A stretch of 64,000 nt of DNA from Streptomyces turgidiscabies Car8 (lineage in GTDB: Bacteria; Actinomycetota; Actinomycetes; Streptomycetales; Streptomycetaceae): contig NZ_AEJB01000208.1 of assembly GCF_000331005.1 (NCBI RefSeq), positions 62,001 through 126,000 on the forward strand, read 5' to 3'. The position numbers were made by a program, and so were the translations under genes. The notes below the pieces were generated by a model, which saw only the letters and a list, made by a program, of their open reading frames with translations, was not told the DNA's origin and made no database searches. Positions 17,731 to 34,953 of this stretch are shown piece by piece. The stretch's first letter is position 1, and each line of letters begins with the position of its first letter.

Positions 17731-17760
17731 AGTAGTCGGGAGGCGGAGCCGATGAGTTCC
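17731..17760 (-). promoter_or_regulatory. ECF-type promoter, copy A (metallophore importer operon)
   Basis: On the minus strand: GGAACTC (17760-17754), a 15-base spacer, CGACTACT (17738-17731). The same two boxes with the same spacing occur at 29281-29310 and 34924-34953. GGAAC is the classic -35 core of ECF sigma factors. The -10 end lies 63 bases before the lipoprotein start. Confidence 0.75.
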
Positions 17761-17773
17761 CGGCGGGGACCGA

Positions 17774-20700
17774 CTACTTCGCGGGAGTTGCCCGTTGGCT
17801 GCCCCGGCGGGCCGGGGCGGGCAGGGCGCCGGTGGTGACGCAGTGGTCGAGGTAGCGGAAGACGAGGTCCCGGTCGACGGGCGGGCAGGTGATGCCGCTG
17901 CCGCGCAGCCCGGTCACGACGTTGTCGGCGCGCACGCGTCCCAGACGCAGGTCGGGGCCGGGGACGCCGTCGGGGTCGGGCGCCGCTTCGGGTGCCACTT
18001 CGGGTGCCGTTTCCCAGGAGTCGAAGAAGGCGAGCGTGGTCGCCGCGACGCCGGAGGAACGCGGCAGTTCGGCACGCCACCGGTCCAGGGGCAGGCGCCC
18101 CAGCCGATAGCCGTACTCCTCCAGCCAGTCGTAGACGTCGCTGAGCCGCACCGGTGGTGTGGCGGCGTGGTTGTAGACGGTCGCCACCGCGCCCGCCGGT
18201 CCGAGGCAGAGACGGACGAGGGCTTCGGCGATGTGGTCGACGGGTGTCCAGGTCTCCTCCTCGAACAGCTCGGGGACGATGCCGGCGGGTATCCCGGCGC
18301 GCAGGACGCTCCACAGGAAGTCCCGTTCGTTCACATGGCCGGTGGCGGCCGGGCCGACGATCCGGCCGAGCCGGTGCACGGTGACCGGCAGTCCCCGCGC
18401 GGCGGCCTGTTCGAGCAGTCGCTCGGCCGCCCACTTCGACTGCTGGTAGCCGTAGCGCAGTCCGGGGTGGGGCGGGAAGAACGCCTCCGGCACTTCGGGG
18501 GCGAGTGCGAGCGGCGGGGCGACGGAGAGCGTCGACACGAAGTGCAGGGGGATCGCGCGTACGGCCGCCAGGCGCAGCAGTTCCCTGGTCGACCCGGTGT
18601 TGGCGGCGCGCAGTGTGGCGTAGTCCCGCATGATGCTGACGGTCGCCGCGTTGTGGAGGATCGCCCCGCAGGTGCGGGCCAGTTCGGCGAACCGCGCCTC
18701 GTGCAGGCCCAGTCGGGGGCGGGAGAGGTCGGCGGAGATCGCCGTGACGCGTGCGTGCTGCCTGTCCGTGAGGTGGATCCGGTGGGTCTGAAGGGCCTGG
18801 CGGACACGGGCGGTGGCCTCGGCGGGGCTCGGGGCCCGTACGGTGCAGACGATCTCGGCTTCGGTGTTCGTCAGCAGCTGTGCGAGCAGGTGTACGCCGA
18901 CGAAACCGGTCGCGCCGGTCAGCAGGACCCGCTCCGGTGTTCCGCCCGGTCGGGGTCCGGCGCCGGGGCGGATGTCCGGGTCGAGGACGGTGTCCGCGAG
19001 CAGGGCGGGCGGAAGTCCGGGAGTCGCGGGGAGTGCCCGCTGCCCCAGGAAGCGTGCGAGTTCGGCGACCCTGGGGTACTGGAAGAGCCAGGCGACCTTG
19101 ACCTCGCGGCCAAGTTCGACGCCGAGCCGGTTGGCGGCCTGGATGGCCTGGAGCGACTGGGCGCCGAGGTCGAAGACGTCGTCCTGCGCGGCGACGGAGG
19201 CCACGCCGAGCAGTTGACGCCAGACGGTGGCGATGACGGATTCCAGGGTGCTGTCGGGCGCGTCGGCCTGTTCGCCGGGGCCGGGTGCCAACGCGGCGAG
19301 TGCTTTCCGGTCGGTCTTTCCCGAGCTCGTCCGGGGCAGCCGTTCCAGGAACTCGACCGCCGAGGGGATCATCGCCGGGGGCAGCGTGGTCCGGAGGTGG
19401 TCCCTGATCGCGGTCACGGCCGGGGCGGGCCCGTCCGGGACGACGTACGCGGCCAGCCGCCGCGTCCCGTCCGCCAGCACCTGTCCCACGACGGCGGCGT
19501 CACGCACTCCCACGTGGGCGAGGAGGGCGCTCTCGACCTCGGCCGGGTGCACGCGCTGCCCGCTGATCTTGAACTCGGTGTCGGACCGGCCCAGGTACCG
19601 CAGTTGGCCGTCGTCGCCGATCCGTACGAGGTCGCCGGTGCGGTAGGCGCGCGGGGCTCCGGGGAGTGCGCGGAGGGGGGCGAAGCGGTCGGCGTCCGGG
19701 GAACGGCCTCCTCGGTAGCCGAGGGCCAGGTTGTCGCCCAGGAGGTGGAGTTCGCCGCCGACCACCGCCGCCCGCGTGCCGGGGAGCGGGAGTCCGATGG
19801 GCACGTCGCCGTGGGCGAGGCCGGGGTCGTGGAGGTCGGCGACGGTGGCGACCACGGTGGCCTCGGTCGGGCCGTACGTGTTGAGCAGCCGGACCGACGT
19901 GCCGACGGCCTTGCGCCAGCGGTCGACGCGTTCGGGCAGGGCCGCCTCACCGCCGATGACGACGGTCCGCACCCCGGCGGGCAGCACGGCGGCGCCGGTC
20001 GACAGGGCGTAGGCCACCTCGTGCCAGTAGGCCGTGGGCAGGTCGAGGAAGCTGATGCGCGAGCGGCCGCACGCGTCGAGGAAGGCGGGGACCGAGTCGG
20101 TCATGTCGTCGCCGCGCACGACGAGCGTGGCGCCCGCGCACAGGGTGAGGAAGATTTCCTCGACGCTGGTGTCGAAGTGCGGAGGGGCGAACTGCAGCAC
20201 ACGGTCGGCGCGTTGGACACCGTAACGGTGCGTGGCACCAGCGACGAAGCGGGCGAGTGCCCGGTGCCCGACCTCGACACCCTTGGGACGCCCGGTGGAG
20301 CCGGAGGTGTGCAGGACGTACGCGAGACCGTCCGGCGCCGGAGCGGTCGCCGAGGCCGCCGCACCGGGTGCCGGCGGGCCATCCGCCACGACGCCCACGC
20401 AATCGGGCCCGTCCGGCACGGGCCCACCCGGCCCGACCGTGCCAGGCACCGGGGAGCCGTCCCCCATGGCGCCAGGCCCACCCGCGCCGGGCGCCGGGCC
20501 GGCATTCGCCATGACCTCGGCGTACGTGGTGGCCGTCAGGGTCAGGGTGGGTTGGGTGTCCTTCAGTAGCTCGGCTCTGCGCGCCGGAGGGGCGGTCGGG
20601 TCGAGGGGGCAGTAGGCGGCGCCGGTGAGCAGGGTGCCGAGGATGGCGGTGATCGCGTCGATGCCGCGTGGCATGGTCACGGCCACCAGGTCCCCGGGGC

Positions 20701-22207
20701 CCACCTCGCGGGCGGCGAGTCGGCGGGCGAGTTCACGCGCCGAGCCGAGGAGTTCCGCGTACGTCACGCTGCGGCCGTCGTGCTCGACGGCCACCGCCGC
20801 GCCGCGCCGGGCGGCCTGGTCGGCGATCAGCCCGAGCACCGGCAGCGCCGGGCCCGGAAGCGGCCCGCCGTCCAGGACGGGAACGGGAACGGAGACGGGG
20901 ACGGACTCACGCGCCCGCAGGCCCGAGAGCGGCCGGTCGGGGTCGGTGACCGCCTCGTCCAGCAGAGCGAGAAGCCCCTCCTGGAACGCGGTGACGTCGG
21001 CCTCGTCGTAGAGGTCGGGGTTGGCGTCCACGGCGATGCGCAGGCCGGTGCCCTCGGAGCGGTCGTAGACGTTGACGGACAGGTCGTCGACAGGCCCGGC
21101 GGAGACGTTGTGGACCGTGCTGCGGTGTCCGGCGAACCGCAGGTCGTACGCGAACGGCATGATGTTGACGCCCGGGCCCGACAACCGGCGTTGCCCTCCC
21201 ACGAGTCCGAGGTCGCGGCGCAGCTGCTCGTAACGGTACCGCTGGTGCGGGAGACCGGCGCGCAGTTCGCGGGAGACGCGGGCGGCGAGGTCGCGCGGGG
21301 TGTCCGCCGGGGTGACGGGGACGCGCAGGGGCAGGATGTTGCGGACCATGCACGGCACCCGGAGGGATACGGAGCCGAGGCGGCCCATCGTGGGGAGGCT
21401 GAGGACGATCTCCGGAGCGCCGGTCATGTGGTGCAGCCGGGCCGCCGTGACCGCCAGCAGGACTTCGGACCAGGTGACTCGCAGGTCGTGGGCGACGGCC
21501 CGCAGGCTCTCCGTCCGTGCCGCGCCGAGATCGACGACCCGTCGGCGGAAGGTGTGCGCGGGCAGGGCGGACCGGTCGGCGGGGGTGGCCACGGGCGGTC
21601 GGTCCGCGTACCGGCCCGCCCAGTGGGCGCGGTCCTTGGTGAGGTGGGGCGAGTCGCGGTAGGCGCTCTCCTCCTCCCGGACCGAGGCCAGGGTGCCGAA
21701 GCCGCTGTCCCCCACCGGCTCGCCCGCGACGAGGGCCGTGTAGACGTCGGCGACGCGGCGGGCGACCAGCGACAGGCCGAAGCCGTCGAGGGCGATGTGG
21801 TGGACGCGGTGGTACCAGAGGTACTCCTGCGGGGCGATCCGCAGCAGGGCATGGCCGAACAGCGGGCCGTGGGCCAGGTCGACGGGGCGGGCCATGTCCT
21901 CGTCCATCCAGGCCAGGGCCGCCGCGCGGGGATCGGGCTCGGCGGTGAGGTCGGCCGTGTGCAGCGTCCAGTCGCCGACGGGGGCGGCCGTCTCCCAGGG
22001 CCGGCCCTGGCCGTCGGCCACGTAGGCGACGTTCAGGGCCTCCGTCTCCGCGACCACGTGGTGCAGGGCGGTGTCGAAGACGGCCGCGTCGACCGGGCCG
22101 TGAATGTGCACGTACTCGGCCGTGTTGAACGCCGGACTGTCCGGGTCGAGCAACTGGCCGGTCCAGACGCCTTCTTGCGCGGCGAGCAGCGACTGACGCT
22201 CCGTCAC
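17774..22207 (-). CDS. Nonribosomal peptide synthetase, C-A-PCP-reductase (ScoA-like, isonitrile lipopeptide)
   Basis: A 1477-residue single-module NRPS. The condensation domain has HHIALDG at 136-142. The adenylation domain (from about 455) has TSGSTGRPKG and NTYGPTEA; its specificity residues read by eye as D-T-E-D-V-G-T-V-V-K, where the two acidic side chains (Glu, second Asp) suggest a basic amino acid such as Lys or Orn. A Gly/Pro-rich low-complexity insert precedes the TSGSTG motif. The carrier site is DLGAQSLQA. The C-terminal thioester reductase (TGATGFVG, YGYQQSK) releases product reductively. GTG 22207 overlaps the upstream ACP stop (GTGA). Domain order and neighbours match the NRPS of isonitrile lipopeptide clusters, where two isonitrile acyl groups are put on a diamino acid. 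Confidence 0.9.
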   Translation of the reverse strand: MTERQSLLAAQEGVWTGQLLDPDSPAFNTAEYVHIHGPVDAAVFDTALHHVVAETEALNVAYVADGQGRPWETAAPVGDWTLHTADLTAEPDPRAAALAWMDEDMARPVDLAHGPLFGHALLRIAPQEYLWYHRVHHIALDGFGLSLVARRVADVYTALVAGEPVGDSGFGTLASVREEESAYRDSPHLTKDRAHWAGRYADRPPVATPADRSALPAHTFRRRVVDLGAARTESLRAVAHDLRVTWSEVLLAVTAARLHHMTGAPEIVLSLPTMGRLGSVSLRVPCMVRNILPLRVPVTPADTPRDLAARVSRELRAGLPHQRYRYEQLRRDLGLVGGQRRLSGPGVNIMPFAYDLRFAGHRSTVHNVSAGPVDDLSVNVYDRSEGTGLRIAVDANPDLYDEADVTAFQEGLLALLDEAVTDPDRPLSGLRARESVPVSVPVPVLDGGPLPGPALPVLGLIADQAARRGAAVAVEHDGRSVTYAELLGSARELARRLAAREVGPGDLVAVTMPRGIDAITAILGTLLTGAAYCPLDPTAPPARRAELLKDTQPTLTLTATTYAEVMANAGPAPGAGGPGAMGDGSPVPGTVGPGGPVPDGPDCVGVVADGPPAPGAAASATAPAPDGLAYVLHTSGSTGRPKGVEVGHRALARFVAGATHRYGVQRADRVLQFAPPHFDTSVEEIFLTLCAGATLVVRGDDMTDSVPAFLDACGRSRISFLDLPTAYWHEVAYALSTGAAVLPAGVRTVVIGGEAALPERVDRWRKAVGTSVRLLNTYGPTEATVVATVADLHDPGLAHGDVPIGLPLPGTRAAVVGGELHLLGDNLALGYRGGRSPDADRFAPLRALPGAPRAYRTGDLVRIGDDGQLRYLGRSDTEFKISGQRVHPAEVESALLAHVGVRDAAVVGQVLADGTRRLAAYVVPDGPAPAVTAIRDHLRTTLPPAMIPSAVEFLERLPRTSSGKTDRKALAALAPGPGEQADAPDSTLESVIATVWRQLLGVASVAAQDDVFDLGAQSLQAIQAANRLGVELGREVKVAWLFQYPRVAELARFLGQRALPATPGLPPALLADTVLDPDIRPGAGPRPGGTPERVLLTGATGFVGVHLLAQLLTNTEAEIVCTVRAPSPAEATARVRQALQTHRIHLTDRQHARVTAISADLSRPRLGLHEARFAELARTCGAILHNAATVSIMRDYATLRAANTGSTRELLRLAAVRAIPLHFVSTLSVAPPLALAPEVPEAFFPPHPGLRYGYQQSKWAAERLLEQAAARGLPVTVHRLGRIVGPAATGHVNERDFLWSVLRAGIPAGIVPELFEEETWTPVDHIAEALVRLCLGPAGAVATVYNHAATPPVRLSDVYDWLEEYGYRLGRLPLDRWRAELPRSSGVAATTLAFFDSWETAPEVAPEAAPDPDGVPGPDLRLGRVRADNVVTGLRGSGITCPPVDRDLVFRYLDHCVTTGALPAPARRGSQRATPAK

Positions 22208-22449
22208 CTCGCTGTCTCCTGACGTGCGGAGAGCAGCTGCCACCACTGACCGAACGAGGCGCGTTCGGCGAGTTCGACGAAGGTGACCTCCACGCCCGTC
22301 GCCCGCCACCGCTCCACGAGGGTGACGATGCGCAGCGAGTCGAGTCCGGCGTGGAGGGGGTTGTCGTCGAGGTCGACCTCGTCGGGCCGCAGGTACAGGT
22401 ACTCCGCCAGGTCCGCACGGAAACCCTCCAGCGTGAGGGGAGCAGGCAT
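22204..22449 (-). CDS. Acyl carrier protein of the isonitrile pathway (ScoB-like)
   Basis: An 81-residue carrier protein with the phosphopantetheine serine in LDSLRI and the EntB/aryl-carrier look of ACPs in this pathway (EYLYLRPDEVDLDDN). Start ATG 22449; its stop overlaps the NRPS start, so the two are translationally coupled. In the described systems the AMP-ligase loads an unsaturated fatty acid here, the FcoT-family enzyme adds glycine, and the oxidase makes the isonitrile while the chain is on this carrier. Confidence 0.85.
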   Translation of the reverse strand: MPAPLTLEGFRADLAEYLYLRPDEVDLDDNPLHAGLDSLRIVTLVERWRATGVEVTFVELAERASFGQWWQLLSARQETAR

Positions 22450-22463
22450 GTCGTTCTCTCTCC

Positions 22464-22503
22464 AGGTCGCAGGTGTGAGGTCGCAGGTGTGAGGTCGCAG
22501 GTC
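22464..22503 (-). repeat. Short direct repeats ahead of the carrier-protein gene
   Basis: AGGTCGCAGGTGTG occurs twice plus a partial third copy, filling the gap between the AMP-ligase stop and the ACP ribosome binding site. Likely slippage-derived; it lengthens the spacer in the operon. Confidence 0.8.
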
Positions 22504-22522
22504 TTTGCCGAGGGAGGGCCGG

Positions 22523-24085
22523 TCAGTTGACCTTGCGGGCGGAGTCACCCCAGAAGCGGTCGCGCAGTTCGCGGCGGAGGATCTTTCCGCTGGGGTTGCG
22601 CGGGACCCTGTCGATGAACTCGTAGCGGGCGGGCAGCTTGAAGCTCGCCAGCCTCGGGACGAGAAAGGTGTGCAAGTCCCGTGCGGTGGGCGGCTGTTCG
22701 GGGTCGGGGACGACGAAGGCGTGCACGTACTCGCCCCAGCGCTCGTCGGGCGCGCCCACGACGACGGCCTCGGCCACCCCGGGATGCGCTTCCAGCACGT
22801 TCTCGATCTCGGCCGGGTAGACGTTCTCGCCGGCGACGAGGACAGCGTCCTTGATGCGGTCGCGGATGAAGACGTAGCCGTCCTCGTCGACGAACCCGGC
22901 GTCCCCGGTGTGGATCCAGCCGTTCACGAGGGTCTCGGCGGTCCGGTCGGGCAGTCCCCAGTACTCGACCATCCGGGCGGGCGTGGCCAGGCAGACCTCG
23001 CCGACCGCGCCCGGCGGTAGTTCGCGCCCCTCGCCGTCGATCACCTTGGCGCGTACGCCCGGATACGGCCGTCCGGCGGCCCGCATGAGCGGGCCGCCGG
23101 GGACGTGGGCGGCCGGGGGCAGGCAGACGGCGGTGTTGCCGGTCTCGGTGAGGCCGTAGATCTGGGCGAACTCGCAGTCGAGGACGGCGAGACTCTCCTC
23201 CAGCAGGGCCTCGGAGATCGGGGAGCCGCCGTAGACCGTCTTGCGCAGGGTGGTGAAGTCCTCGGCGCCGACGCCGGGTTCGGTCAGCATCATGCGGAGC
23301 ATGGCCGGGACGACGCAGGCGGTGGTGATGCCGAGGTCGCGGATGAGGTCGACGGCCTCGCGTGCGGCGAAGGCGCGCATCGCGACGATCGTCGTGCCCG
23401 CGTCGAGGTTCTGCGTCGCCCACCACAGGCCGCCGATGTGGAAGCCGGGGATGCCGATCAGCGCGATGTCGCCGGCGCGCCAGTCGATCCAGTCGAGGCC
23501 CTCGCTCGCCAGGGCGTCCCGGATCGCGAAGAAGCTGCGGTGGGCGAGGACGACGCCCTTGGGCAGGCCGGTGGTGCCGCTGGTGTAGAGCTGGGCGACC
23601 GGGGTGTCCGGGGTGGCGGTGTCCGGTGGTTCGGTGTCGGGGTGGGGTGCCTTCCAGGCGGTGAAGGACTCGCCGAGTGCGACGACCGTCTCAGGGGGCG
23701 CGGTCGGCATCTTCTCGACGATCGGGGCGAACTCGTCCTCCAGGAAGAGGAGTCGGGTGCCGGAGTCCTGGAGGATGTGGCTGACCTCGGGCGCGGCGAG
23801 CCGCCAGTTGACGGGGACCAGGACGGTGCCGCTCTTGGCGCAGGCGAAGAGGATCTCGTAGTAGTGCTCCGACTCCTTGCCGAGGTACGCGACCCGGTCG
23901 CCGGCCGTGAGTCCGGCGGCCAGGAGAGCGTGGGCGACGCGGTTGCTCTCGCGGTGCAGTTCCTCGTAGGTCAGGGTGCGGCCGTCGCAGAGGATCGCGG
24001 GGGTGGTCGGCCGGTGCCGGGCGTGGAAGCTCGTGGTCCGGACGAGGGTCCGGAGCTCCGGGTGGTGGAGCGTGTCCATGGTCAT
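22523..24085 (-). CDS. Fatty acyl-AMP/ACP ligase of the isonitrile pathway (ScoC/FadD10-like)
   Basis: A 520-residue ANL-superfamily enzyme: P-loop YTSGTTGLPKG, YGLTETGN, hinge-region HTGDAGF and the catalytic-lysine end NPSGKIL. It should activate a fatty acid as adenylate and pass it to the neighbouring carrier protein. Position between the FcoT-family gene and the ACP/NRPS pair matches the conserved cluster order in Streptomyces and mycobacteria (FadD10 in Rv0096-Rv0101). Start ATG 24085 (GAGAGAAAG ahead); a second ATG is 6 bases further in. Confidence 0.88.
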   Translation of the reverse strand: MTMDTLHHPELRTLVRTTSFHARHRPTTPAILCDGRTLTYEELHRESNRVAHALLAAGLTAGDRVAYLGKESEHYYEILFACAKSGTVLVPVNWRLAAPEVSHILQDSGTRLLFLEDEFAPIVEKMPTAPPETVVALGESFTAWKAPHPDTEPPDTATPDTPVAQLYTSGTTGLPKGVVLAHRSFFAIRDALASEGLDWIDWRAGDIALIGIPGFHIGGLWWATQNLDAGTTIVAMRAFAAREAVDLIRDLGITTACVVPAMLRMMLTEPGVGAEDFTTLRKTVYGGSPISEALLEESLAVLDCEFAQIYGLTETGNTAVCLPPAAHVPGGPLMRAAGRPYPGVRAKVIDGEGRELPPGAVGEVCLATPARMVEYWGLPDRTAETLVNGWIHTGDAGFVDEDGYVFIRDRIKDAVLVAGENVYPAEIENVLEAHPGVAEAVVVGAPDERWGEYVHAFVVPDPEQPPTARDLHTFLVPRLASFKLPARYEFIDRVPRNPSGKILRRELRDRFWGDSARKVN

Positions 24086-24104
24086 GGCTTTCTCTCGCCT
24101 TGGG

Positions 24105-24602
24105 TCAGGGGACGTTGACGAACGCCAGGGTCGCCTCGCCGTCGCAGCGGCCCGACTCGGCGTCCCGGTAGCGGAAGGTGGTCTCGGCGTGCAGGAACGG
24201 GCTGCCGCCGGCCGGGGTGCGCCGGGTGACGGAACGGAACTCCAGTTCCCCGGAGAATGCACGGGGATTGACCGGGCGTCTGAAGTTGGACGAGAAACGG
24301 GCTATGAGGATGTCCGGCAGCTGGCGCGCGAAGAAGTCGTCCAGCGTCCATGATGCGAATCCCGTGCCCAGCCCGTCCCGTACCGACCTGGCGACGAGGT
24401 AGTACATCATCTGGTTGTAGCAGATGTTCACCTCGACGGAATTCAGATGGCCGGTGTCGTCGATGTAGCACGACTCGGGAATCTCGAACTCGCAGTGGGC
24501 CGAGGCCCGTCCGTCGGTTTCCGTCACGACGGCCGAACGCAGGTACTTGCAGTGTTCCTTGTAGGGCGCCAGCACCCGGGCCAGCAGGGCTTCGTCAGTC
24601 AT
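24105..24602 (-). CDS. FcoT-family thioesterase/lyase of the isonitrile pathway (ScoD-like)
   Basis: A 165-residue hot-dog-fold protein matching the FcoT family (Rv0098) in size and pattern: [19 protein letters not shown] is family-like in its [10 protein letters not shown] core, followed by [14 protein letters not shown]. In the characterised pathway this enzyme does not simply hydrolyse: it places glycine on an alpha,beta-unsaturated acyl-ACP to give a beta-amino acyl intermediate. The ATG overlaps the oxidase stop (ATGA), so translation is coupled with the step that follows. Confidence 0.88.
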
Positions 24603-25489
24603 GCCACCCGGATCCCGTCGTGCAGCCCGCGTTCGTCGTGGACGGTGACGCGGTAGGAGACGGTCGGCTCGGGCGTGGTCGTGTGCCGGGCGCGGTGGAT
24701 CAGGCTGCGGTTGTCCCAGACCAGCAGGTCACCCCGCTCGAAACTCTGCAGGTGGATACCCTCGTGCTCGAACGTCTCGTCGAGCTGGCCGGTGGCGTCG
24801 AAGAGCCGCTTGAGCAGTTCCTCGTCGAGCGGGTCGCCGTCCTGGTCCTCGATGCCGACGGTGAAGCCCTCACTGATGTAAAGGACCGTCTCGCCGGTCA
24901 TGGGGTGGGTGAAGGTGGTGGGCTGGACGACGGCCGGGGTTTTCCGCTCGACCTCGTCGATGATCTCGGAGAGAGGCCGGTAGACGTCGTGCGGCCGGAT
25001 TTTGAAGTACTTGCGCACCGAGTGCCTGCACCGTGTTCCGGCGATTTCCCTCTTCAGTTCCTCGGGCAGATTCTGGTACGCCCGGCCCATGTCGATGAAA
25101 TACGTTCCGCGGTTCTTCTCCGGAATGACCTGGGGGTGGATGAGGGTGATTCCGAAGGGGTCCGGCATGAACTGGTAGTCGGCGTGCCAGAACTTGCCGG
25201 TCTTCGGTACGCCGATCTGCTTGCCGTCCTTCGGGACGTTGGAGGAGACGAACACCTCCGGGACCTCCGGGTGCTGGTACATCGGCTCGTAGTAGGTCTC
25301 GGGGCGCCCCAGCCGCCTGCCCAGGGCCAGGAACTCCTGGGGGGAGAGGTGCTGTCCCTTCAGGACGGCGATCTTCTTCGTGTAGACGGTGTTCTTGAGC
25401 GCGGCGATGTCGGCGTCCGAGGCGGTGGTGTGGTCGAAGCCCTCGACCTCGGCGCCGATCGCGCCGCCAGGCTGTTCGTTGATCTCCAT
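24599..25489 (-). CDS. TauD-like Fe(II)/2-oxoglutarate oxidase forming the isonitrile (ScoE-like)
   Basis: A 296-residue TauD-family dioxygenase. Metal ligands are predicted as His102 and Asp104 (FWHADYQF) and His265 (RSLIHRARH), with Arg280 in SYRVTVHD as the 2-oxoglutarate-binding arginine. Family members of this cluster oxidatively decarboxylate the N-carboxymethyl-beta-amino acid to the isonitrile. The YYEPMY and RKYFKIR stretches are in the region that binds the substrate carboxylates in ScoE-type enzymes. Start ATG 25489 is chosen because GGAAGGAAG precedes it; ATG 25507 has no such site. Next to FcoT, ligase, ACP and NRPS genes, so assignment rests on context as well as motifs. Confidence 0.88.
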
Positions 25490-25519
25490 ACCGGTGCTTC
25501 CTTCCATGGTCGGGCGGGG

Positions 25520-26869: not shown

Positions 26870-28231
26870 CTACGGACTCGGGGTCCCGCGCCGCATGAGC
26901 ATCGCGAGCGCGAGCGCCCCGCAGCCGATGCCGAGCGCGATGGCGAACGCGGCCGTACGGATGCCGTCGAGCAGCCCGGCCCCGGTGGCGCTCTGTCCCA
27001 CTCCCCCGGCGAGCGCGACCAGGACGGCGAGTCCCACCGCACCGCCCACCTGCAGGGTGGTCGACGCCAGCCCGGAGGCCACCCCCTGGTCACCGGGTGC
27101 GACCCCGGCGGACGCGGCGATCCACATCCCCGTCCATGCGGCGCCCTGACCGAGCCCCAACAGCACGATCCCCGGCAGGAGTTTCGGATACGAGCCGTCC
27201 GAAGTGAGCGCCAGGCCGAGCGCCGCCGCTCCGGCGGCACCCACCGTCATCCCGCCCACCAGCGTGCGGCGCATCCCGAAGGCGGCGACGGCCCGTTCCC
27301 CGGCCTGGGTGCCCACGGCCACCACGACGGCCGGCACGAGGAACGCGAGCCCGGTCGCGACCGAGCTGTAGCCGTGGACGGTCTGGAAGTAGAGGGTGAG
27401 GAAGTACGGCACCGAGCTGAACGTGGCGCTGAACAGCGCGGTCACTCCCATCGCCGCCGGCAGGCCCCGGTGCGCGAACATCCTTGCCGGTACGAGCGGT
27501 TCGGGCGACCGCCGTTCCACTACGGCGAACAGGGTCAGGAGCCCGGCCGAGAGCGCCGCGCTGATGAGGGCCGCGGGTGTGGTCCAGCCCTCCGCCGGGG
27601 CCTGCACCAGCAGATACACCAGGAGGGTGATCCCGCCCGTGGCGGTGAGCGCGCCCAGGACGTCGAAGCGCCGGGTACGGTCCCGCGGCCCGTCCGCCGG
27701 GAAGAGCAGCCGGCCGGCCACCGCGAGCACCACGGCGATCGGCACGTTGACGAAGAACACCGACGGCCAGCCGAAGGCCTCCACCAGCACCCCGCCCAGC
27801 AGGGACCCGAAGCAGAGCCCGCCGGCCCCCGCCGCACCCCACACCGCCAGGGCCCGGTTCCGGGCGGGTCCCTCCTCGTACAGGGTGTTGATCAGCGACA
27901 ACGTCGCCGGGAACAGCAGCGATCCGCCGATGCCCTGGACCGCCCGCACGGCGACCAGCACACCGGGCGTCTCCGACAACCCGCCCACCAGCGACGATCC
28001 CGCGTAGAGCAGTGCGGCGAGGACGAACATCCGGCGCCGGCCCAACAGGTCGGCGGCCCGGCCGCCCAGCAGCAGGAAACCTCCCGTGGACACGACGTAG
28101 GCGCTGACCACCCACTGCAGATCGTGGTCGGAGAAGCCGAGCCCGGCGCCGATGTCCGGCAGGGCGACGTACACGATGTTGTAGTCGAGCGAGATGACGA
28201 GCTGCCCCAACGCCAGAACTAAAAGAGACAC
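26870..28231 (-). CDS. MFS drug/metabolite exporter, DHA2-type, with a TTA codon
   Basis: A 453-residue transporter with about 14 predicted membrane segments and the family motifs RAADLLGRRRMF (loop 2-3) and GPLLGG-like GSLLGGVLVE (segment 5). Likely exports the cluster product. It starts at GTG 28231 behind GAGGGGG. Its fourth codon is TTA (28220-28222), the rare leucine codon read only by the bldA tRNA in Streptomyces, so production is probably tied to development. The N-terminus is short before the first membrane segment. A 235-base AT-richer gap separates it from the upstream hydroxylase gene. Confidence 0.88.
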   Translation of the reverse strand: MSLLVLALGQLVISLDYNIVYVALPDIGAGLGFSDHDLQWVVSAYVVSTGGFLLLGGRAADLLGRRRMFVLAALLYAGSSLVGGLSETPGVLVAVRAVQGIGGSLLFPATLSLINTLYEEGPARNRALAVWGAAGAGGLCFGSLLGGVLVEAFGWPSVFFVNVPIAVVLAVAGRLLFPADGPRDRTRRFDVLGALTATGGITLLVYLLVQAPAEGWTTPAALISAALSAGLLTLFAVVERRSPEPLVPARMFAHRGLPAAMGVTALFSATFSSVPYFLTLYFQTVHGYSSVATGLAFLVPAVVVAVGTQAGERAVAAFGMRRTLVGGMTVGAAGAAALGLALTSDGSYPKLLPGIVLLGLGQGAAWTGMWIAASAGVAPGDQGVASGLASTTLQVGGAVGLAVLVALAGGVGQSATGAGLLDGIRTAAFAIALGIGCGALALAMLMRRGTPSP

Positions 28232-28466: not shown

Positions 28467-29222
28467 TCAGTCCTCCCCCATGAGCCGGCGGATCTCGGTC
28501 ATGAGGGCGACCAGTGCCCGGCGCTCCGGGAGGGTCGTTTCCGGGTGCCAGAGGTCGATGAGCAGGCAGGTTCGCGGGCGCGTGCCCTCGTTACGCGCCT
28601 CGTGCTCGAAGGAGTAGTCGAAGAGCAGGCACTTGCCCTCCTCCCAGGACCGGGTCTCTCCGGCCACCGTGATACCGCATCCGTCGGGGATGTCCACGGC
28701 GAGATGGAGGTTGATGCTGAAGTTCCACAGGTCGCAGTGGGGGTCGATGGCGGCGCCGGGCAGCAGCGTGGAGAAATGACATTCCAGGAGGGGACAGATC
28801 TTCTCCGTGTCGACGGCGACTTCTTTCAGTAACCGGTAAGCGGTCGGAGCCAGAGCTGCCGACTCCGTGACAAGGCCACCGCCGCGAAAGAGATAGAGGG
28901 CCTGCCAGTTGTCCTGGCGCGTCAGATAGTGCTCGTAGTCCGAGAACGCCTCCCGGCGCCCCGCCCAGGCGACGTCCAGCTCTGTTCTGATCGACTGATG
29001 AGCGTCTTCGAGCGCCCGCACGACCGGGACGATCTCGTCGTAGGCGTAGGGGTCGTGCCAGGGAGTCGCGGACAGTCCCGGCAGGACCCACTTCGCCGCT
29101 TTCTGCGCCGGATGCCGTTCGCCGCCGCCGCCCGGCTCCAGCATCTGCTCGACCCTGGTGATCGACTCCGTACCGAACTCGGCCCTGATCGCGGCGAAGG
29201 CGTTCTCTATCTCGGGTGTCAC
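28467..29222 (-). CDS. Aspartyl/asparaginyl beta-hydroxylase-family oxygenase, with a TTA codon
   Basis: A 251-residue protein whose C-terminal half is an Asp/Asn beta-hydroxylase domain: FSTLLPGAAIDPHCDLWNFS with the first iron His, then WEEGKCLLFDYSFEHEARN with the second iron His, Arg-rich RPRTC and final LIDLWHPE. Expected chemistry is Fe/2-oxoglutarate hydroxylation of an amino acid or acyl chain. It is the first gene of the leftward cluster, 59 bases behind ECF promoter copy B. An in-frame TTA codon at 28830-28832 makes it bldA-dependent. No such enzyme belongs to the known ScoA-E set, so it may tailor the product. Confidence 0.82.
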   Translation of the reverse strand: MTPEIENAFAAIRAEFGTESITRVEQMLEPGGGGERHPAQKAAKWVLPGLSATPWHDPYAYDEIVPVVRALEDAHQSIRTELDVAWAGRREAFSDYEHYLTRQDNWQALYLFRGGGLVTESAALAPTAYRLLKEVAVDTEKICPLLECHFSTLLPGAAIDPHCDLWNFSINLHLAVDIPDGCGITVAGETRSWEEGKCLLFDYSFEHEARNEGTRPRTCLLIDLWHPETTLPERRALVALMTEIRRLMGED

Positions 29223-29280: not shown

Positions 29281-29310
29281 AGTAGTCGGCCGGGGGCGGG
29301 CCCGAGTTCC
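29281..29310 (-). promoter_or_regulatory. ECF-type promoter, copy B (isonitrile cluster)
   Basis: Minus strand: GGAACTC (29310-29304), 15-base spacer, CGACTACT (29288-29281), identical boxes and spacing to copies A and C. The -10 end is 59 bases before the hydroxylase start, the same distance as in copy C. Confidence 0.75.
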
Positions 29311-29408
29311 CGGCTTCCTCGAATTCCCTGCGGAAACCGGCCGGTTCGACAGGCGCCGGGAACCAGACGGACCCACGCCCCGACCACTCCCACATGGAGC
29401 AGAGAAGT

Positions 29409-29921
29409 GTGATCCGCGTGCCGCGCCGGACGCGCAACACCCGGTTCGCCAACGCCCTGTGGGCCGTGGTGCCACCGTTGGGCGCCGCCGCCGGTGCGCT
29501 GGTCCTGCTGGCGGGCTACACCGCGACCGGCGCGGCGGGCGAGCCACCGCCCGGGATCAGGGTCGTCGACGCGCGCGTGGTCGCGGTACCCGCGGGCTCC
29601 GGCGCCACCCGCGCGTACTTCGAGATCCGCAACACCGGCCCGTCGAAGGACAGCCTGCTGTACGCGGACTCACCGGACCTGGGCGTCAGCATCCTGCGCC
29701 GCACGGTGATCCGTGGCGGCGCCGAACGCACGTACTCCGTAAGGTCCGTCGAGGTTCCCGCGGGCGGCACGCTACGCATGGCACCCGGCGGGGTCCTGGT
29801 CGGGATCCTGGACCCGCCCGTCCTGAAACCCGGCCGGCGCGTGCCCTACGTCCTGTGGTTCGAGCGGAGCGGCAAGGTCACCGTCCGGGCGACCGTGGTC
29901 GGGGCGGCGCCCGCGAGGTGA
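29409..29921 (+). CDS. PCuAC-like copper-chaperone-fold protein, membrane-anchored, ligands degenerate
   Basis: A 170-residue protein with an N-terminal membrane segment (AGALVLLAGYTATGAAG) and a PCuAC/DUF461 beta-barrel: VVDARVVAVPAGSG, TRAYFEIRNTGP, VEVPAGGTLRMAPGG. Start at GTG 29409, set by GGAG 9 bases ahead; ATG 29394 has no such site. The usual copper motif of this family (H-x-M...H-x-M) is not complete: no histidine is seen in the ligand loops and only the Met of LRMAPGG remains. It may be a structural or differently liganded relative. The copper genes on the other strand follow. Confidence 0.75.
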   Translation: MIRVPRRTRNTRFANALWAVVPPLGAAAGALVLLAGYTATGAAGEPPPGIRVVDARVVAVPAGSGATRAYFEIRNTGPSKDSLLYADSPDLGVSILRRTVIRGGAERTYSVRSVEVPAGGTLRMAPGGVLVGILDPPVLKPGRRVPYVLWFERSGKVTVRATVVGAAPAR

Positions 29922-30007: not shown

Positions 30008-30697
30008 TTACGCGGCGACGGCAGCCGGGACCCGGTCCGCCTCAACTGCCTCGGCCTCGTCGAGCAGTTCGATGAGGGTGGCGCGGGCGCGGGCCACCCG
30101 GGAGCGGATCGTCCCGACCGGGCAGCCCCCGGCGACGGCGGCGTCCTCGTAGGGCAGCCCCGCCAACTGGGTGAGGACGAACGCCTCGCGGCGCTCGACG
30201 GGCAGCGCGTCCAGCAGGTCGAGCAGGGCCACCCCGTCGTCGAAGCCGGGCAGGCCGATGGGCTGGGCACGCTCCGCCCAGCTCGTCCAGTCGTCCACGT
30301 CCGCCGCCCGCGGCCGGGTGGCGGCGTACCGCAGGCTGTCGATGACCGTGCGGCGCGCGATGGACAGCAGCCAGGTGCGCGCCGACGAGCGGCCCTCGAA
30401 CCGGTGCAGGCCGCCGAGCGCCCGCAGGAACGTGTCCTGGGCGAGATCGGCGGCCAGTTGGCGGTCGCCGGAGAGGTAGGTGACGTAGCGGACGACGTCC
30501 GAGTACAGGGCACGCACGAAATGGTCGACGGCGTCGGGATCGCCGGCCCGGGCGGCGAGGGCATAGGCGGTGGCCGGGTCGTCGGGCGTCGCCGTCGTGA
30601 CGGGCCGACCGGACGCCGTGCGACCCGCGTCGCGCTTCCTGGACGCCAGAGGCGAAAGGGGCGACAAGGGCGACAAGGGGAGGACAGGAGTGATCAC
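30008..30697 (-). CDS. ECF RNA polymerase sigma factor
   Basis: A 229-residue ECF sigma factor. Region 2 (VVRYVTYLSGDRQLAADLAQ then DTFLRALGGLHRFEGRSSAR) and region 4 (LPVERREAFVLTQLAGLPYE then PVGTIRSRVARAR) are complete. Start GTG 30697 (AAGGA ahead) is preferred to an upstream start. A PLSPLSPLSPL repeat lies near the N-terminus. No standard anti-sigma gene is adjacent, though the Met/His-rich membrane protein just upstream could sense metal. Three identical ECF-type promoters lie within 13 kb in front of metallophore-import, isonitrile and copper-efflux genes, and this is the only sigma gene here. I infer it reads them. No copy precedes the sigma gene itself. Confidence 0.9.
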   Translation of the reverse strand: MITPVLPLSPLSPLSPLASRKRDAGRTASGRPVTTATPDDPATAYALAARAGDPDAVDHFVRALYSDVVRYVTYLSGDRQLAADLAQDTFLRALGGLHRFEGRSSARTWLLSIARRTVIDSLRYAATRPRAADVDDWTSWAERAQPIGLPGFDDGVALLDLLDALPVERREAFVLTQLAGLPYEDAAVAGGCPVGTIRSRVARARATLIELLDEAEAVEADRVPAAVAA

Positions 30698-30927: not shown

Positions 30928-31593
30928 TCAGACGACAGCGGTCCCGGCCGGAGGCCCCCGAGAGATGATCGTGTGTGTGAGCGTCAGCCGCGGGATCCGC
31001 TCGGCACGCTCACGCGTCGGCCGCAGACTGGGCCGGCGCGGTGGTACGGGCAGGGCGAGCAGGGGCAGCCGCAGCGGAGCGGCCAGCCAACCGGCGACGG
31101 CCCGCAGGAGCCTGAAGGCGGCCCGCTCGCCGTACGCCAGCCACAGACCGGTCAGCAGGGCGGCCAGTGTGTGGGCGGCGAGCATGCCCAGCGACGACGT
31201 ACCGCCGGTGCCGTGAGCCATGTGGCCCACGTGGCCCATGTGCGCGGAACCCATATGCGCGGAGCCCATGTCCATGGCGTCCATCGAGCCCATGGACATC
31301 GAGCCGTCGGACATGCCACCCGTGCCGGATCCCGACGCGGCCGACCCGCCCCATGAGAAGGCCGAGTGGAGTGCCCCCTGCACGACGACCACGACGGACA
31401 CCACCAGCGGGAGCCCCCGCTCACGGCCCGCCAGGGTCCAGCCGACGGCGCTCGTGGCGCCGAAGCCGGCGGACAGCGTCCACCACGGCACGCTGGAGCC
31501 CGACATGAGTACGTGTCCGAGGGCAGCGAGCAGCACACAGACGGCCGCGAACACCGCGGCTCGTACCGTGCGCACACCCCGCCCTGCAGTCAT
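30928..31593 (-). CDS. Membrane protein with Met/His-rich loop, DUF5134-like
   Basis: A 221-residue protein with about four to five membrane segments (AAVFAAVCVLLAALGHVLMS, LPLVVSVVVVVQGALHSAF and others). Between them lies a loop dense in Met, His, Ser and Gly (MSDGSMSMGSMDAMDMG, then HMGSAHMGHVGHMAHG), a composition typical of copper-binding regions. The size and layout resemble DUF5134 proteins. It lies between the ECF sigma gene and the second PCuAC-like gene, all read leftward. A role in copper sensing or storage is inferred from composition and neighbours only. Confidence 0.65.
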   Translation of the reverse strand: MTAGRGVRTVRAAVFAAVCVLLAALGHVLMSGSSVPWWTLSAGFGATSAVGWTLAGRERGLPLVVSVVVVVQGALHSAFSWGGSAASGSGTGGMSDGSMSMGSMDAMDMGSAHMGSAHMGHVGHMAHGTGGTSSLGMLAAHTLAALLTGLWLAYGERAAFRLLRAVAGWLAAPLRLPLLALPVPPRRPSLRPTRERAERIPRLTLTHTIISRGPPAGTAVV

Positions 31594-31765
31594 GACGGCC
31601 TCATCCTCGCATCCGGGCTCCGCTCGTCACAGGTGGGTACGCACGGGACCCGGGCCCCCAACTCACCCAGAGGGGAGTGATACAGAACACAGGGACCCGC
31701 CGGAACTCGAAGGACGGTCCGGCCGACTTCTACGGAAGAGCCGTCAGCTGGCGTCCCCAGAAACG

Positions 31766-32290
31766 TCAGATACCGCCCTCGCCCGGCCGGACCACCACCG
31801 CCAGGGTCTTCACGGCCCCGCCGTGCTCGAAGTGCAGCGTGAACGAGACGAGGTCGCCCGGCTGCCAGCCCTTCCTCACCGGCACTATCACGTCGAGGCC
31901 GTCCGGTGACATGGCGAGGCTCTCGCCCGCCGGCACGGCGACGGAGCCGACCGTCAGGTCGGAGGCGGTGTTGGAGCTGTTCATGACGTGCCGGCTCAGG
32001 ACGGCCTCGCCCGCGCCGACCTCGGTGGACGTCACTCTCAGCAGCCGGTCCGCCGCTCCCCCGCTGTTGGTGATCCGGAAGAAGGCCGCCGTGACCGGGG
32101 TGGCTCCCGAGGGCGTGAACATCCTGCCGCCGGTGACCTCGATCCGGGCCGGGCTGCCTGCGTTGCCGAAGGCGGTCCACGTACTCAGCCCGCCGAGCGC
32201 CAGCCCGCACACGGCGACCGGCGCGAGCACGGCCGACAGGGAATCGGTGAGCCGGCGGCGGGTCGGGCGCCACAGGCGCGGTTCGGTCAT
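31766..32290 (-). CDS. PCuAC-type copper-binding protein
   Basis: A 174-residue exported or membrane-anchored protein (VLAPVAVCGLALGGLSTW) with a PCuAC fold: GGRMFTPSG, TAAFFRITNSGG, SRHVMNSSN and VAVPAGESLAMSPDG. The His-x-x-Met-like SRHVM and the Met of LAMSP are candidate copper ligands, so this copy is better equipped than the one at 29409. Its ATG overlaps the CopA stop (ATGA); it is co-translated with the copper exporter and probably buffers or delivers copper outside the membrane. Confidence 0.8.
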   Translation of the reverse strand: MTEPRLWRPTRRRLTDSLSAVLAPVAVCGLALGGLSTWTAFGNAGSPARIEVTGGRMFTPSGATPVTAAFFRITNSGGAADRLLRVTSTEVGAGEAVLSRHVMNSSNTASDLTVGSVAVPAGESLAMSPDGLDVIVPVRKGWQPGDLVSFTLHFEHGGAVKTLAVVVRPGEGGI

Positions 32291-34602
32291 CGGGCACCTC
32301 TCCGGGAAGCCGGTGCGGTCGAGGTGGAGCGCGAGGGTGAGAGCGTGGGCTGCCAGCCGCGCAGGCGCAGGCTGTTGGCGACGACCAGCACCGAACTCGC
32401 CGACATGGCCGCGGCGGCCAGCATCGGGTTGAGCAGGCCGACCATGGCGAGCGGGACGGTGACGACGTTGTAGCCGAAGGCCCAGACGAGGTTCTCACGG
32501 ATCGTGCCCAGCGTGCGCCGGGCCAGCAGCACCGCGTCCGCGAGGGCCTCGATGTCACCGCGGACGAGGGTCACGTCGGCGGCGCCGATGGCCACGTCCG
32601 TGCCCGAGCCCATGGCGATCCCGAGGTCGGCACCCGCGAGCGCGGCGGCGTCGTTCACGCCGTCGCCGACGACCGCGACCCGGTAACCCTGTTCCCGCAA
32701 CTCCCGTACCAGGTCGGCCTTTCCCTCGGGTGTGCAGCGGGCGTGCACCTCCTCGATGCCGAGCGCGTCGGCGACGGCACGGGCAGGTGCCTCGCGGTCG
32801 CCGGTGGCGAGCACGGGCCGTACGCCGAGCCGCCGCAGCCGGTCCACCGCGCGATAGCTGCCGGGCCGTACTACGTCCCCGATCTCGATCAGCGCCTCGA
32901 CCGTGCCGTCCACCCGGACCGTCACAGGCGTACGGGCGGCGGACTCGGCGCCCGCCAGGGCCTGCGCGAGCGCGGCGGGCAGGTCGTCGTCGGGCGACAG
33001 GACCTCGACCAGCCGTCCCTCGACCAGCCCCCGCACACCGCGTCCCGGCAGGGCGACGAACTCGCTCACGTCCGGCAGCCGCCGCGCGCCCGACTCCCGG
33101 CGCGCGTGGGCTGAGATCGCCCGGCCGAGCGGATGCTCCGAGCCCTGTTCCACGGCCCCCGCCAAGCGCAGTGCCGCGTCGCTCCCGAGCCCGTCCGGCG
33201 GGGCGGTGACCTTGGCGACGGTCATATGGCCGGTGGTCAGGGTGCCGGTCTTGTCGAGGACGACCACGTCGAGATGCTGAAGTCCCTCCAGCGCCTGCGG
33301 CCCGGTGACGAGCACGCCGAGCTGGGCTCCCCGGCCGGTGGCGGCCAGCAGCGCGGTCGGCGTCGCGAGCCCGAGGGCGCAGGGACAGGCCACGACCAGT
33401 ACCGCCACACACGCGGTGAGCGCCGCCTGCGGATCGGCTCCGGCGCCCAGCCAGAATCCGAGCGCGGTGACGGCCAGCGCCAGCACCATCGGCACGAACA
33501 CCCCGGCGACGGAGTCGGCCAGCCGCTGCGCCCGCGCCTTTCCCGCCTGCGCCTCGGTCACCAGCCGGGCGATCCGGGCGAGCTGCGTGTCCGCACCGAC
33601 CGCTGTGGCCCGTACGAGGAGCAGCCCGCCGGCGTTGACGGCCCCGCCGACCACGGCCGAACCGGGCCCGACCTCCACGGGCTCGCTCTCACCGGTGACC
33701 AGGGAGAGGTCCACGGCCGAACTGCCCCCGGTGACCTGCCCGTCGGTGGCGACCCGTTCGCCCGGCCGCACGACGAACACCTGGCCGGCCCTCAACTCCT
33801 CGATGGGGATGAGCCGTTCGTGTCCGTCGTCCTCCCGGACGGACACCTCCTTGGCGGCGAGGCGGGCCAGTGACCGCAGCGCCTCGCCGGTCCCGTGCCG
33901 CGCCCGGGCCTCCAGGAACCGCCCGGCGAGCACGAACAGCGTCACGCCGACGGCCGCTTCGAGGTAGAGGTGCGCGACCCCGTCCGGGGCGGCGGGCACG
34001 AGCGTGAACGGCATCCGCATCCAGGGGTCGCCGGCCCCGCCGAGGAACAGCGCGTACGTCGACCACGCGAAGGAGGCCACCACGCCCAGCGACACCAGGG
34101 TGTCCATGGTGGCCGCCGAGTGCCGCAGCCCCCGTACCGCCCGTACGTGGAAGGGCCAGGCGCTCCACACGGCGACGGGCGCGGCGAGCACGAAGCACAG
34201 CCACTGCCAGTTGCGGAACTGCAGAGCGGGCGCCATGGACAGCACGAGCACGGGGACGGACAACAGGGCCGTGACGACCAGCCGGTGCCGTTCCTGCCGG
34301 GCACCCTCGGACTCGTCGCCGTCGTCGGCGCCGTCGTCGGCGGGCTCCCGTTTCCCGGGTGGCTCGGGCAGGGCGGCCGTGTATCCGGCCTTCTCGACGG
34401 TGGCGACGAGTTCGTCCGGGCCGATGTCCGCCGGGTGACTCACACGGGCCGTTCCGGTGGCGAGATTGACGGTCGCGGTGACCCCGTCCAGCTTGCCGAG
34501 CTTCTTCTCGACGCGGGTCACACACGCGCCGCAGGTCATGCCGCCGACGGTCAGATCGGTCGTCAGCAGGACGGTCCCCGCAGTCCCCGGTTCCGCGCCC
34601 AT
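32287..34602 (-). CDS. copA: Copper-exporting P1B-type ATPase
   Basis: A 771-residue P-type ATPase. An N-terminal HMA domain has the copper site GMTCGAC (Cys24, Cys27). Membrane segments start near 110. The actuator loop has VTGES, the ion-channel segment CPC (VVACPCALGLATPTAL), the phosphorylation site DKTGTLT, the nucleotide-binding SEHPLGRAI and the hinge GDGVND. Acidic residues (DDGADDGDESEG) follow the HMA domain. It pumps Cu(I) out of the cytoplasm. It overlaps its upstream neighbour (TGATG) and downstream PCuAC gene (ATGA), giving a tight three-gene unit behind ECF promoter copy C. Confidence 0.93.
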   Translation of the reverse strand: MGAEPGTAGTVLLTTDLTVGGMTCGACVTRVEKKLGKLDGVTATVNLATGTARVSHPADIGPDELVATVEKAGYTAALPEPPGKREPADDGADDGDESEGARQERHRLVVTALLSVPVLVLSMAPALQFRNWQWLCFVLAAPVAVWSAWPFHVRAVRGLRHSAATMDTLVSLGVVASFAWSTYALFLGGAGDPWMRMPFTLVPAAPDGVAHLYLEAAVGVTLFVLAGRFLEARARHGTGEALRSLARLAAKEVSVREDDGHERLIPIEELRAGQVFVVRPGERVATDGQVTGGSSAVDLSLVTGESEPVEVGPGSAVVGGAVNAGGLLLVRATAVGADTQLARIARLVTEAQAGKARAQRLADSVAGVFVPMVLALAVTALGFWLGAGADPQAALTACVAVLVVACPCALGLATPTALLAATGRGAQLGVLVTGPQALEGLQHLDVVVLDKTGTLTTGHMTVAKVTAPPDGLGSDAALRLAGAVEQGSEHPLGRAISAHARRESGARRLPDVSEFVALPGRGVRGLVEGRLVEVLSPDDDLPAALAQALAGAESAARTPVTVRVDGTVEALIEIGDVVRPGSYRAVDRLRRLGVRPVLATGDREAPARAVADALGIEEVHARCTPEGKADLVRELREQGYRVAVVGDGVNDAAALAGADLGIAMGSGTDVAIGAADVTLVRGDIEALADAVLLARRTLGTIRENLVWAFGYNVVTVPLAMVGLLNPMLAAAAMSASSVLVVANSLRLRGWQPTLSPSRSTSTAPASRRGAR

Positions 34603-34865
34603 CAGCCGTGTCCCCCCTGCATGTCGTCCATACCCCCGGTGCCTCCCGTGCCGCCCCCGCCACTGCCGTCACCGCTGCCGTCACCGCCGCTGGTGCCGTG
34701 CATGCCGGGTGCGACAGGGCCGGCGCCGACGCCGACGGCGTAGGACACCGTGAAGATCAGGGCCAGCAGCAGAAGGAAGCCGCAGAGCGCGGGCGGGGGC
34801 GCCGCCCTCCGCACCACCTCGCCCATGCCGCTCGCGCTCGATGAGGATTGCCGGGACTCGTCCAT
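34602..34865 (-). CDS. Small membrane protein with Gly/Met/His-rich tail, first gene of the copA operon
   Basis: An 87-residue protein with one membrane segment (LCGFLLLLALIFTVSYAVGV) and a flexible C-terminal tail of Gly, Met and His (GMHGTSGGDGSG, then GGMDDMQGGHG). Start ATG 34865 follows GGAG 8-9 bases ahead. Its stop overlaps the copA start (TGATG). No known family is recognised. The tail composition and the coupling to copA suggest a copper-handling accessory role. The ECF promoter copy C is 59 bases upstream. Confidence 0.7.
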   Translation of the reverse strand: MDESRQSSSSASGMGEVVRRAAPPPALCGFLLLLALIFTVSYAVGVGAGPVAPGMHGTSGGDGSGDGSGGGGTGGTGGMDDMQGGHG

Positions 34866-34923
34866 CAACCGCGTCTCCAGGTCATGTCGTACGGCGTCGT
34901 TCGGAGTCGCGCCGTACCGAACG

Positions 34924-34953
34924 AGTAGTCGGAGCGGGGCCGGACCGAGTTCC
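34924..34953 (-). promoter_or_regulatory. ECF-type promoter, copy C (copA operon)
   Basis: Minus strand: GGAACTC (34953-34947), 15-base spacer, CGACTACT (34931-34924). Identical boxes and spacing to copies A and B. The -10 end is 59 bases from the start of the small membrane-protein gene. Confidence 0.75.

Follow-up and report, generated by a model that had tools for sequence, protein, structure and literature searches.

What places an importer, an isonitrile-lipopeptide biosynthetic cluster and a copper ATPase operon behind one and the same upstream sequence in Streptomyces turgidiscabies Car8? In a 64,000-nucleotide (nt) stretch of this genome (hereafter, the window), GGAACTC-N15-CGACTACT occurs exactly three times, always on the minus strand: at 17731–17760, 62 nt before fecB; at 29281–29310, 58 nt before the hydroxylase gene that opens the isonitrile cluster; and at 34924–34953, 58 nt before the operon for a small protein, CopA and a PCuAC copper chaperone. 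One hundred dinucleotide shuffles of the window gave a mean of 0.00 exact copies. We consider it highly probable that all three are promoters belonging to a single regulon for copper acquisition, which a SigC-like extracytoplasmic function (ECF) sigma factor serves, most likely the one encoded at 30008–30697 (−), possibly shared with a paralogue on contig C326. An earlier reading of the DNA letters (the sequence-only reading) had placed the same three sites before a FecB/FecCD/FecE importer, the first gene of the isonitrile-lipopeptide cluster and the small-protein/copA/PCuAC operon, at 59–63 bases from the start codon; our searches agree, up to the counting convention for the distances, which we take from the end of the −10 box, and give the importer Peripla_BP_2, FecCD and ATP-binding cassette (ABC) domains. 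Its ECF sigma gene is likewise borne out by Pfam domains (Sigma70_r2 and Sigma70_r4_2).

Across the host genome (10.8 Mb in 690 contigs), the exact motif occurs four times, the fourth copy lying on contig C214, 94 nt before a PepSY_TM gene. Allowing one mismatch raises the count to six, against one for a reversed-pattern control, and adds a plus-strand site at 31702–31731 in the window and a site on contig C359. A relaxed pattern returned five hits in the same genome, the single new one within a coding regulator gene, and the idea of a regulon scattered over unrelated genes was dropped on this result. The many copies at unrelated genes that the sequence-only reading had named as a sign against itself did not appear. 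That reading had missed the C214 copy before the PepSY_TM gene, the site at 31702–31731 (+) and a degenerate site at 29359–29388 (+), both described below.

Two samples of relatives were compared. The first comprises 80 named loci, picked by ScoE and totalling 1.59 Mb, many of which come from related species, so that counts among them are not independent. The second is a family survey of 200 genomes, 63 belonging to genus g1, that of the host, and 137 lying outside it; the S. griseoaurantiacus (L137) and S. olivaceus (L145) loci are contigs of genomes G086 and G180 and are present in both samples. In the named loci, the distance from GGAAC to CGACTACT was 17 bases in 78 instances and took no other value between 10 and 24, and a reversed-sequence control gave two instances in all; on this control a chance or repeat origin was dropped. 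GGAAC is an ECF −35 core. With a fixed spacing between the −35 and −10 boxes, one orientation and a short distance to the start codon, the motif is, as judged from sequence, an ECF-type promoter class with rigid spacing. Could an ordinary activator or repressor that responds to copper or another metal bind here instead, with no alternative sigma factor involved? Some transcription-factor sites are likewise fixed in spacing, and the pairing of sigma factor and promoter is here a predicted one. We regard this as very improbable: the site is non-palindromic, its two boxes include an ECF-type GGAAC, its orientation is fixed and its spacing absolute, the motif is associated with SigC genes, and the same layout precedes gene kinds that are reported to be SigC-dependent in Mycobacterium tuberculosis.

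The genes behind these promoters recur across the named loci. The nearest reference gene downstream of sites with up to one mismatch was FecB in 35 cases, the hydroxylase in 22, the small protein in 10, CopA in 7, an ABC ATPase in 3, ScoE in 2 and a major facilitator superfamily (MFS) transporter in 1. Eight further sites point away from MetRich, a Met- and His-rich membrane protein encoded beside the sigma gene, and 11 have no reference gene within 420 nt; in five of these 11, by our own reading, an MFS gene is next (L161–L164 and L166). A best upstream match of 0–3 mismatches was seen for FecB in 37 of 38 cases and for the hydroxylase in 24 of 45; where the hydroxylase has no good site, the gene often follows sigC or is placed elsewhere than in the window. 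Such a site precedes the fatty-acyl adenylate-forming ligase (FAAL), the non-ribosomal peptide synthetase (NRPS) or ScoE in 3 of 96 instances. Sites with up to one mismatch are present in 43 of the 51 loci that hold both an NRPS and FecB and in 3 of the 29 others (p = 5e-11, relatedness ignored). Among these three exceptions, the L142 contig stops before the NRPS, and L148 has an NRPS and is cut before any FecB.

The family survey yielded 48 exact sites in 29 of the 200 genomes, which we placed by homology of the downstream stretch. PepSY genes follow 15 of them, FecB 7, a second FecB type (FecB2) 4, the hydroxylase 6, copA or PCuAC-copA 7 and an ABC ATPase 3, together 42; site G086:C76:16012, with two possible genes (an ABC ATPase and a hydroxylase 846 nt farther), was entered as ATPase. 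Three of the rest diverge from MetRich, one precedes a FecE fragment, one a DJ-1/PfpI gene and one, in G006, nothing related. The comparison of promoters in relatives that the sequence-only reading had called for finds the motif before FecB, isonitrile clusters, copA-PCuAC and PepSY genes in Streptomyces. Genus g1 contributes 39 exact sites against 14 in the reversed control. Of the 29 genomes with an exact site, 27 have a SigC-like gene, defined at E ≤ 1e-40, as against 90 of the remaining 171 (p = 2e-5); the two without it are G006 and G022, and in G022 a contig end cuts a sigma gene (L274).

Several arrangements in relatives vary this layout. In L114 (7293–8113), a DJ-1/PfpI family gene not far from a MetRich–SigC pair has an exact site before it; isocyanide hydratases belong to the DJ-1/PfpI superfamily, according to passages of PMC10792529. 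Exact sites in L115 (3581–4312) and L116 (8187–8911) stand before an ABC transporter ATPase, downstream of PCuAC genes, and this ATPase, ZnuC-like by our naming, suggests that the regulon includes another type of importer. L119 (9796–9902) carries two exact promoters back to back, one for the second FecB-type importer and the other for PCuAC-copA. In G083 (L082, 3441–11348), a FecB importer, SigC, MetRich and a copA operon occur with SigC-type sites, and no ScoE over the family cut-off was found in this genome; G083 possibly uses the chalkophores of other species.

Which sigma factor reads these promoters? The product of 30008–30697 has the SigC model PRK09649 as its best NCBIfam match (165.3 bits). 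A second SigC-like gene, on C326, is 65% identical and has a MetRich paralogue upstream; the next host ECF sigma factor reaches 74 bits. When mycobacterial SigC was compared with the host ECF sigma factors, the C326 protein scored 139 bits, the window protein 120 and the next 69 (10 loci fetched of 28 matches). SigC of locus L231, from a presumed Mycobacterium, and of Allokutzneria L194 both rank the two host SigC-like genes first among the 10 ECF loci, C326 ahead. The same regulon might therefore be read mainly by the C326 paralogue, or by both, the window gene being a local duplicate with other or overlapping specificity. Apart from its better match to the mycobacterial and Allokutzneria proteins and its own MetRich paralogue, this is favoured by the PepSY site in genomes with a single SigC-like gene at E ≤ 1e-40, such as G128 and G040. 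On the other side, the window copy sits within the target cluster, and the only SigC-like gene of G192 at this threshold is in its cluster, in a genome with three exact sites. We consider a main role for the paralogue possible, if rather unlikely, and the window sigma the best single candidate, by sequence and position, for reading the motif. Of the earlier proposal that one sigma factor controls all three units, the single regulon with ECF-like promoters is supported, with the window sigma as best candidate; the C326 gene could read the same promoters.

A looser form of the motif recurs outside Streptomyces. For a mycobacterial comparison, six loci were selected by ScoE, with the motif playing no part in the choice, from genomes G338, G388, G477, G498 and G512, which we take to be Mycobacterium from the PPE-type proteins beside ScoE in L231 and L233, read by eye. 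GGAACT-N16-CGACY occurs 11 times in these loci (none in L229), against 5 over 17 other spacings, and the reversed control for this spacing scan gave 1. The sites include those before PPE/nrp, scoE-like and Cu-ATPase genes. The Cu-ATPase promoter of L231 diverges from sigC; L230 has the ATPase, sigC, PepSY and nrp-type genes side by side in one cluster. Places picked by the motif were also fetched from other presumed Mycobacterium genomes (5 of many listed): L270 has a site before a Cu-ATPase adjoining SigC, with PepSY genes near. L271 (G625, 5502–10701) contains two SigC-like genes, and PPE-like genes in their vicinity have SigC-type sites before them. Allokutzneria L194 and L195 hold SigC, an NRPS, FecB and CopA, with a one-mismatch site just before ScoE.

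These layouts resemble a published circuit. According to passages of PMC7924339, SigC of M. tuberculosis and bacillus Calmette–Guérin (BCG) acts on both the isonitrile (nrp) operon and ctpB, which are preceded by near-identical predicted −35 and −10 elements; mutation of sigC impairs growth without copper and lowers nrp expression in copper-poor medium; sigC induction raises nrp and ctpB, and SigC transcribes ctpB in vitro. The same passages cite a chromatin immunoprecipitation (ChIP) study that located SigC sites. The core link between SigC, isonitrile synthesis and a copper ATPase is therefore already published for M. tuberculosis, and the sequence-only reading was mistaken in supposing it undescribed. 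The Streptomyces regulon shares with the M. tuberculosis one (rv0096–0101 nrp and ctpB) a SigC-type sigma factor, ScoE-type biosynthesis and promoter elements that the isonitrile genes have in common with a Cu P-type ATPase. It differs in its FecB/FecCD/FecE importer and PCuAC targets, in the pairing of sigC with MetRich and in a sigma factor that scores under the SigC equivalog cut-off. The passages of the M. tuberculosis work name no PepSY target, though two presumed Mycobacterium loci do have PepSY genes beside SigC.

What would the regulon respond to? Copper shortage is the likelier signal in our analysis, because the regulon holds the chalkophore pathway, the importer, PCuAC chaperones and the PepSY_TM protein. 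PepSY_TM proteins can act as metallophore reductases. Were copper excess the signal, the chalkophore and copA would bind and expel the metal. CopA-type ATPases and secreted copper ligands can indeed protect cells, and the window CopA matches TIGR01511. In addition, the Streptomyces tsukubaensis ECF sigma factor SigG1 is tied to copA/copZ and copper tolerance (passages of PMC7730460). We nevertheless think a response to excess improbable: an uptake-type system and PCuAC chaperones are co-regulated; in mycobacteria it is a lack of copper to which SigC and the nrp cluster respond (passages of PMC7924339 and PMC9600254); and the other CopA of the host, 56% identical, has no SigC-type site within two mismatches in its 10.4-kb piece (L112). 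Passages of PMC9600254 also state that diisonitriles confer resistance to copper starvation and cite a copper uptake role reported for SF2768.

The sequence-only reading had assigned copA to copper efflux. We find it more likely, by analogy, that CopA here delivers copper rather than removes it, because of the regulon context and the arguments made for CtpB, which rises under copper chelation and for which either import or high-affinity export on behalf of cuproenzymes has been argued (passages of PMC9147137). Orthology of CopA and CtpB as a settled matter was dropped, as the host's other CopA is no more distant from the mycobacterial enzyme (identities below).

How SigC activity could be tied to copper is suggested by MetRich (30928–31593 (−)), with its Met/His-rich loop and R-G/A-P-P tail. 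A homologue is encoded no more than 1.2 kb upstream, in the same orientation, in at least 55 of the 60 best other SigC-like genes (59 in relatives and the host paralogue, the window's own being left out), and one of the other five (G086:C77) is also preceded by MetRich on direct reading. Five residues (Cys19, His27, His76, Met137 and His141) never change across 29 aligned proteins; helices 3 and 4 are joined by a segment that is Met/His-rich yet variable, and the C-terminus carries R-G/A-P-P. The structural model has helices at 5–31, 37–54, 61–88 and 130–180, with loop and tail at low confidence; by the positive-inside rule, the loop would lie outside and the tail inside. Like the zf-HC2 membrane anti-sigma factors, MetRich is a membrane protein encoded beside an ECF gene; unlike them, it has no zf-HC2 or other Pfam domain. 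Its pairing and conserved residues make it a candidate copper-sensing anti-sigma factor.

MetRich could instead be a copper transporter or chaperone, with the sigma factor controlled by its amount or by self-inhibition, a reading to which we give somewhat less than an even chance. The missing zf-HC2 or other Pfam domain fits it. To our knowledge, M. tuberculosis SigC has no known anti-sigma factor, which we also count in its favour. It sits less well with the frequent SigC pairing, the conserved R-G/A-P-P tail and the zf-HC2 membrane proteins with Met/His-containing segments found divergently beside Allokutzneria SigC and, in the presumed Mycobacterium locus L231, 2.3 kb from SigC. These zf-HC2 proteins may be the counterpart of MetRich. 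More ambitiously, and only tentatively, we propose MetRich as a new type of anti-sigma factor: a four-helix Cu(I) sensor, acting through its invariant residues and outer loop, whose tail would free SigC when copper is absent, combined in part of Streptomyces with antisense feedback from the divergent site into the copA operon.

Directly upstream of the metRich–sigC pair, we found no SigC-type promoter. The corresponding region (31600–31700 (−) in the window) is conserved and by eye holds a housekeeping-like leaderless promoter. Between this probable metRich–sigC promoter and the divergent site, some species have a CRP-like TGTGA-N6-TCAC palindrome, which is degenerate in the window.

A number of observations weigh against a SigC-read copper-acquisition regulon under MetRich control. 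In 21 of 45 cases the best match before the hydroxylase has four mismatches or more, and 4 of the 51 loci with an NRPS and FecB have no site within two. Outside g1, the nine exact sites in 137 genomes are fewer than in the reversed control, so that gene context alone speaks there. Eight of the 14 genomes with a ScoE over the cut-off have no exact motif; of the seven of these that were checked, G115, G094 and G103 have one-mismatch copies, as do G055 and G132 (apparently L161 and L164), and the pieces read from G147 and G100 contain no copy with two mismatches or fewer. The window sigma (165.3 bits) and its paralogue (174.5 bits) both fall under the SigC cut-off of 219 bits, which is passed by the L231 (227.1 bits) and Allokutzneria L194 (225.2 bits) proteins, and of the two SigC-like genes in the host it is the C326 copy that is closer to mycobacterial SigC. 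Window CopA is 49% and the host's other CopA 51% identical to the SigC-linked ATPase of G512, as compared by sequence identity. In copper-poor medium, ctpB expression was the same in the M. tuberculosis sigC mutant and its parent (passages of PMC7924339). Finally, the MetRich model is modest (predicted local distance difference test score, pLDDT, 68.7); the protein has no anti-sigma domain, with no NCBIfam match and no Pfam match even at E ≤ 1, for which reason we rejected it as a zf-HC2 anti-sigma factor; and a fold search gave no PDB match beyond a single one at E 8.5, so that naming it by fold was dropped.

Taking the regulon as a copper-acquisition system, we propose the following sequence of events. 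When copper runs short, the SigC-like sigma factor would be freed and RNA polymerase would start at GGAACTC-N15-CGACTACT, switching on the chalkophore cluster, the FecB/FecCD/FecE importer, the small protein–copA–PCuAC operon and the PepSY_TM gene. Copper would then be scavenged and re-imported; reduction might free it from the chalkophore, and CopA and PCuAC would pass it to cuproenzymes on the outside. MetRich would probably hold the sigma factor while its membrane His, Cys and Met residues and its outer Met/His loop carry Cu(I). The directions and purposes of the transporters, and the part played by the PepSY protein, are what we infer from this scheme.

Two further sites in the window concern the PCuAC genes. 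The one-mismatch copy at 31702–31731 (+) is divergent from the MetRich–sigma pair and antisense to the PCuAC/copA operon, since it points into the PCuAC gene at 31766–32290 (−; PF04314) from the 3′ side. The MetRich start lies 138 nt from the far end of this site in each of four loci, the window included, and among the same four loci the distance to the PCuAC stop varies; these distances come from a gap scan that is blind to divergent sites overlapping the PCuAC stop codon. The divergent position is occupied, at up to one mismatch, in eight named loci, L137 and L145 among them, and in G083. A site near this position precedes PepSY in G103 and the copA operon in L151 and L152. The divergent site may make an antisense RNA, or may remain from an arrangement like that of G103 or of L151 and L152. 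The second site, a degenerate SigC-like promoter, GGAACC-N16-CGACCACT, with three mismatches at 29359–29388 (+), is separated by 5 nt from the ATG that opens the second PCuAC gene (29394–29921 (+); PF04314). Because it occupies the same position in all five loci compared (the window and four others), this gene is probably read from a leaderless SigC-type promoter.

Two other known systems invite comparison. The biosynthetic genes resemble the SF2768-type diisonitrile chalkophore pathway of Streptomyces in having a ScoE equivalog, an NRPS with a reductase domain and a ligase; in a mostly open-access literature, we found no report of ECF sigma control of that pathway. S. tsukubaensis SigG1–RsfG (ECF56) is also a Streptomyces ECF system with an adjacent anti-sigma factor and a copper-gene link; SigG1 differs in its SnoaL_2 domain and its tie to copper tolerance and efflux, and the passages of PMC7730460 mention no chalkophore. 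What appears to be new here are the importer, the PepSY protein and PCuAC as targets, the Streptomyces promoter rule, the two paralogues and MetRich as a candidate sensor. GGAACTC-N15-CGACTACT offers a sequence rule by which to look throughout Streptomyces for importers of chalkophores, PepSY proteins and genes of copper delivery. The SigC–copper circuit of M. tuberculosis is thereby suggested to reach beyond mycobacteria, with MetRich as a candidate answer to how it is linked to copper.

The remaining genes of these units all lie on the minus strand. The importer comprises a FecB-like substrate-binding protein (16625–17668; PF01497), a FecCD permease (15594–16622, start approximate; PF01032, 314.5 bits) and a FecE-like ATPase (14797–15651, start approximate; PF00005). 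The predicted isonitrile-lipopeptide cluster is recognized by its ScoE equivalog, an isonitrile-forming oxygenase/decarboxylase (24599–25507; NF049937, 531 bits, cut-off 400), together with an NRPS of condensation, adenylation, carrier and thioester reductase domains (17774–22309) and the FAAL (22523–24262). It further holds an acyl/peptidyl carrier protein (25520–25951, bounds of the open reading frame (ORF) uncertain; PF00550), a beta-ketoacyl-acyl carrier protein synthase III (KAS III; 25756–26766, start approximate), an MFS transporter that is a possible chalkophore exporter (26870–28231; PF07690) and, as its first gene, the Asp/Asn-hydroxylase-like Asp_Arg_Hydrox protein (28467–29222; PF05118). 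In the copA operon, the small membrane-type protein (34602–34865), whose translation has a Met/His-containing C-terminus and gave no Pfam or NCBIfam family hit, precedes the CopA-like Cu P1B-type ATPase (32287–34602; TIGR01511, 498 bits, cut-off 397). Near the cluster, at 8133–10199 (−), a single ORF joins an FTR1-family permease to an imelysin (Peptidase_M75) domain, an iron-uptake-like combination.

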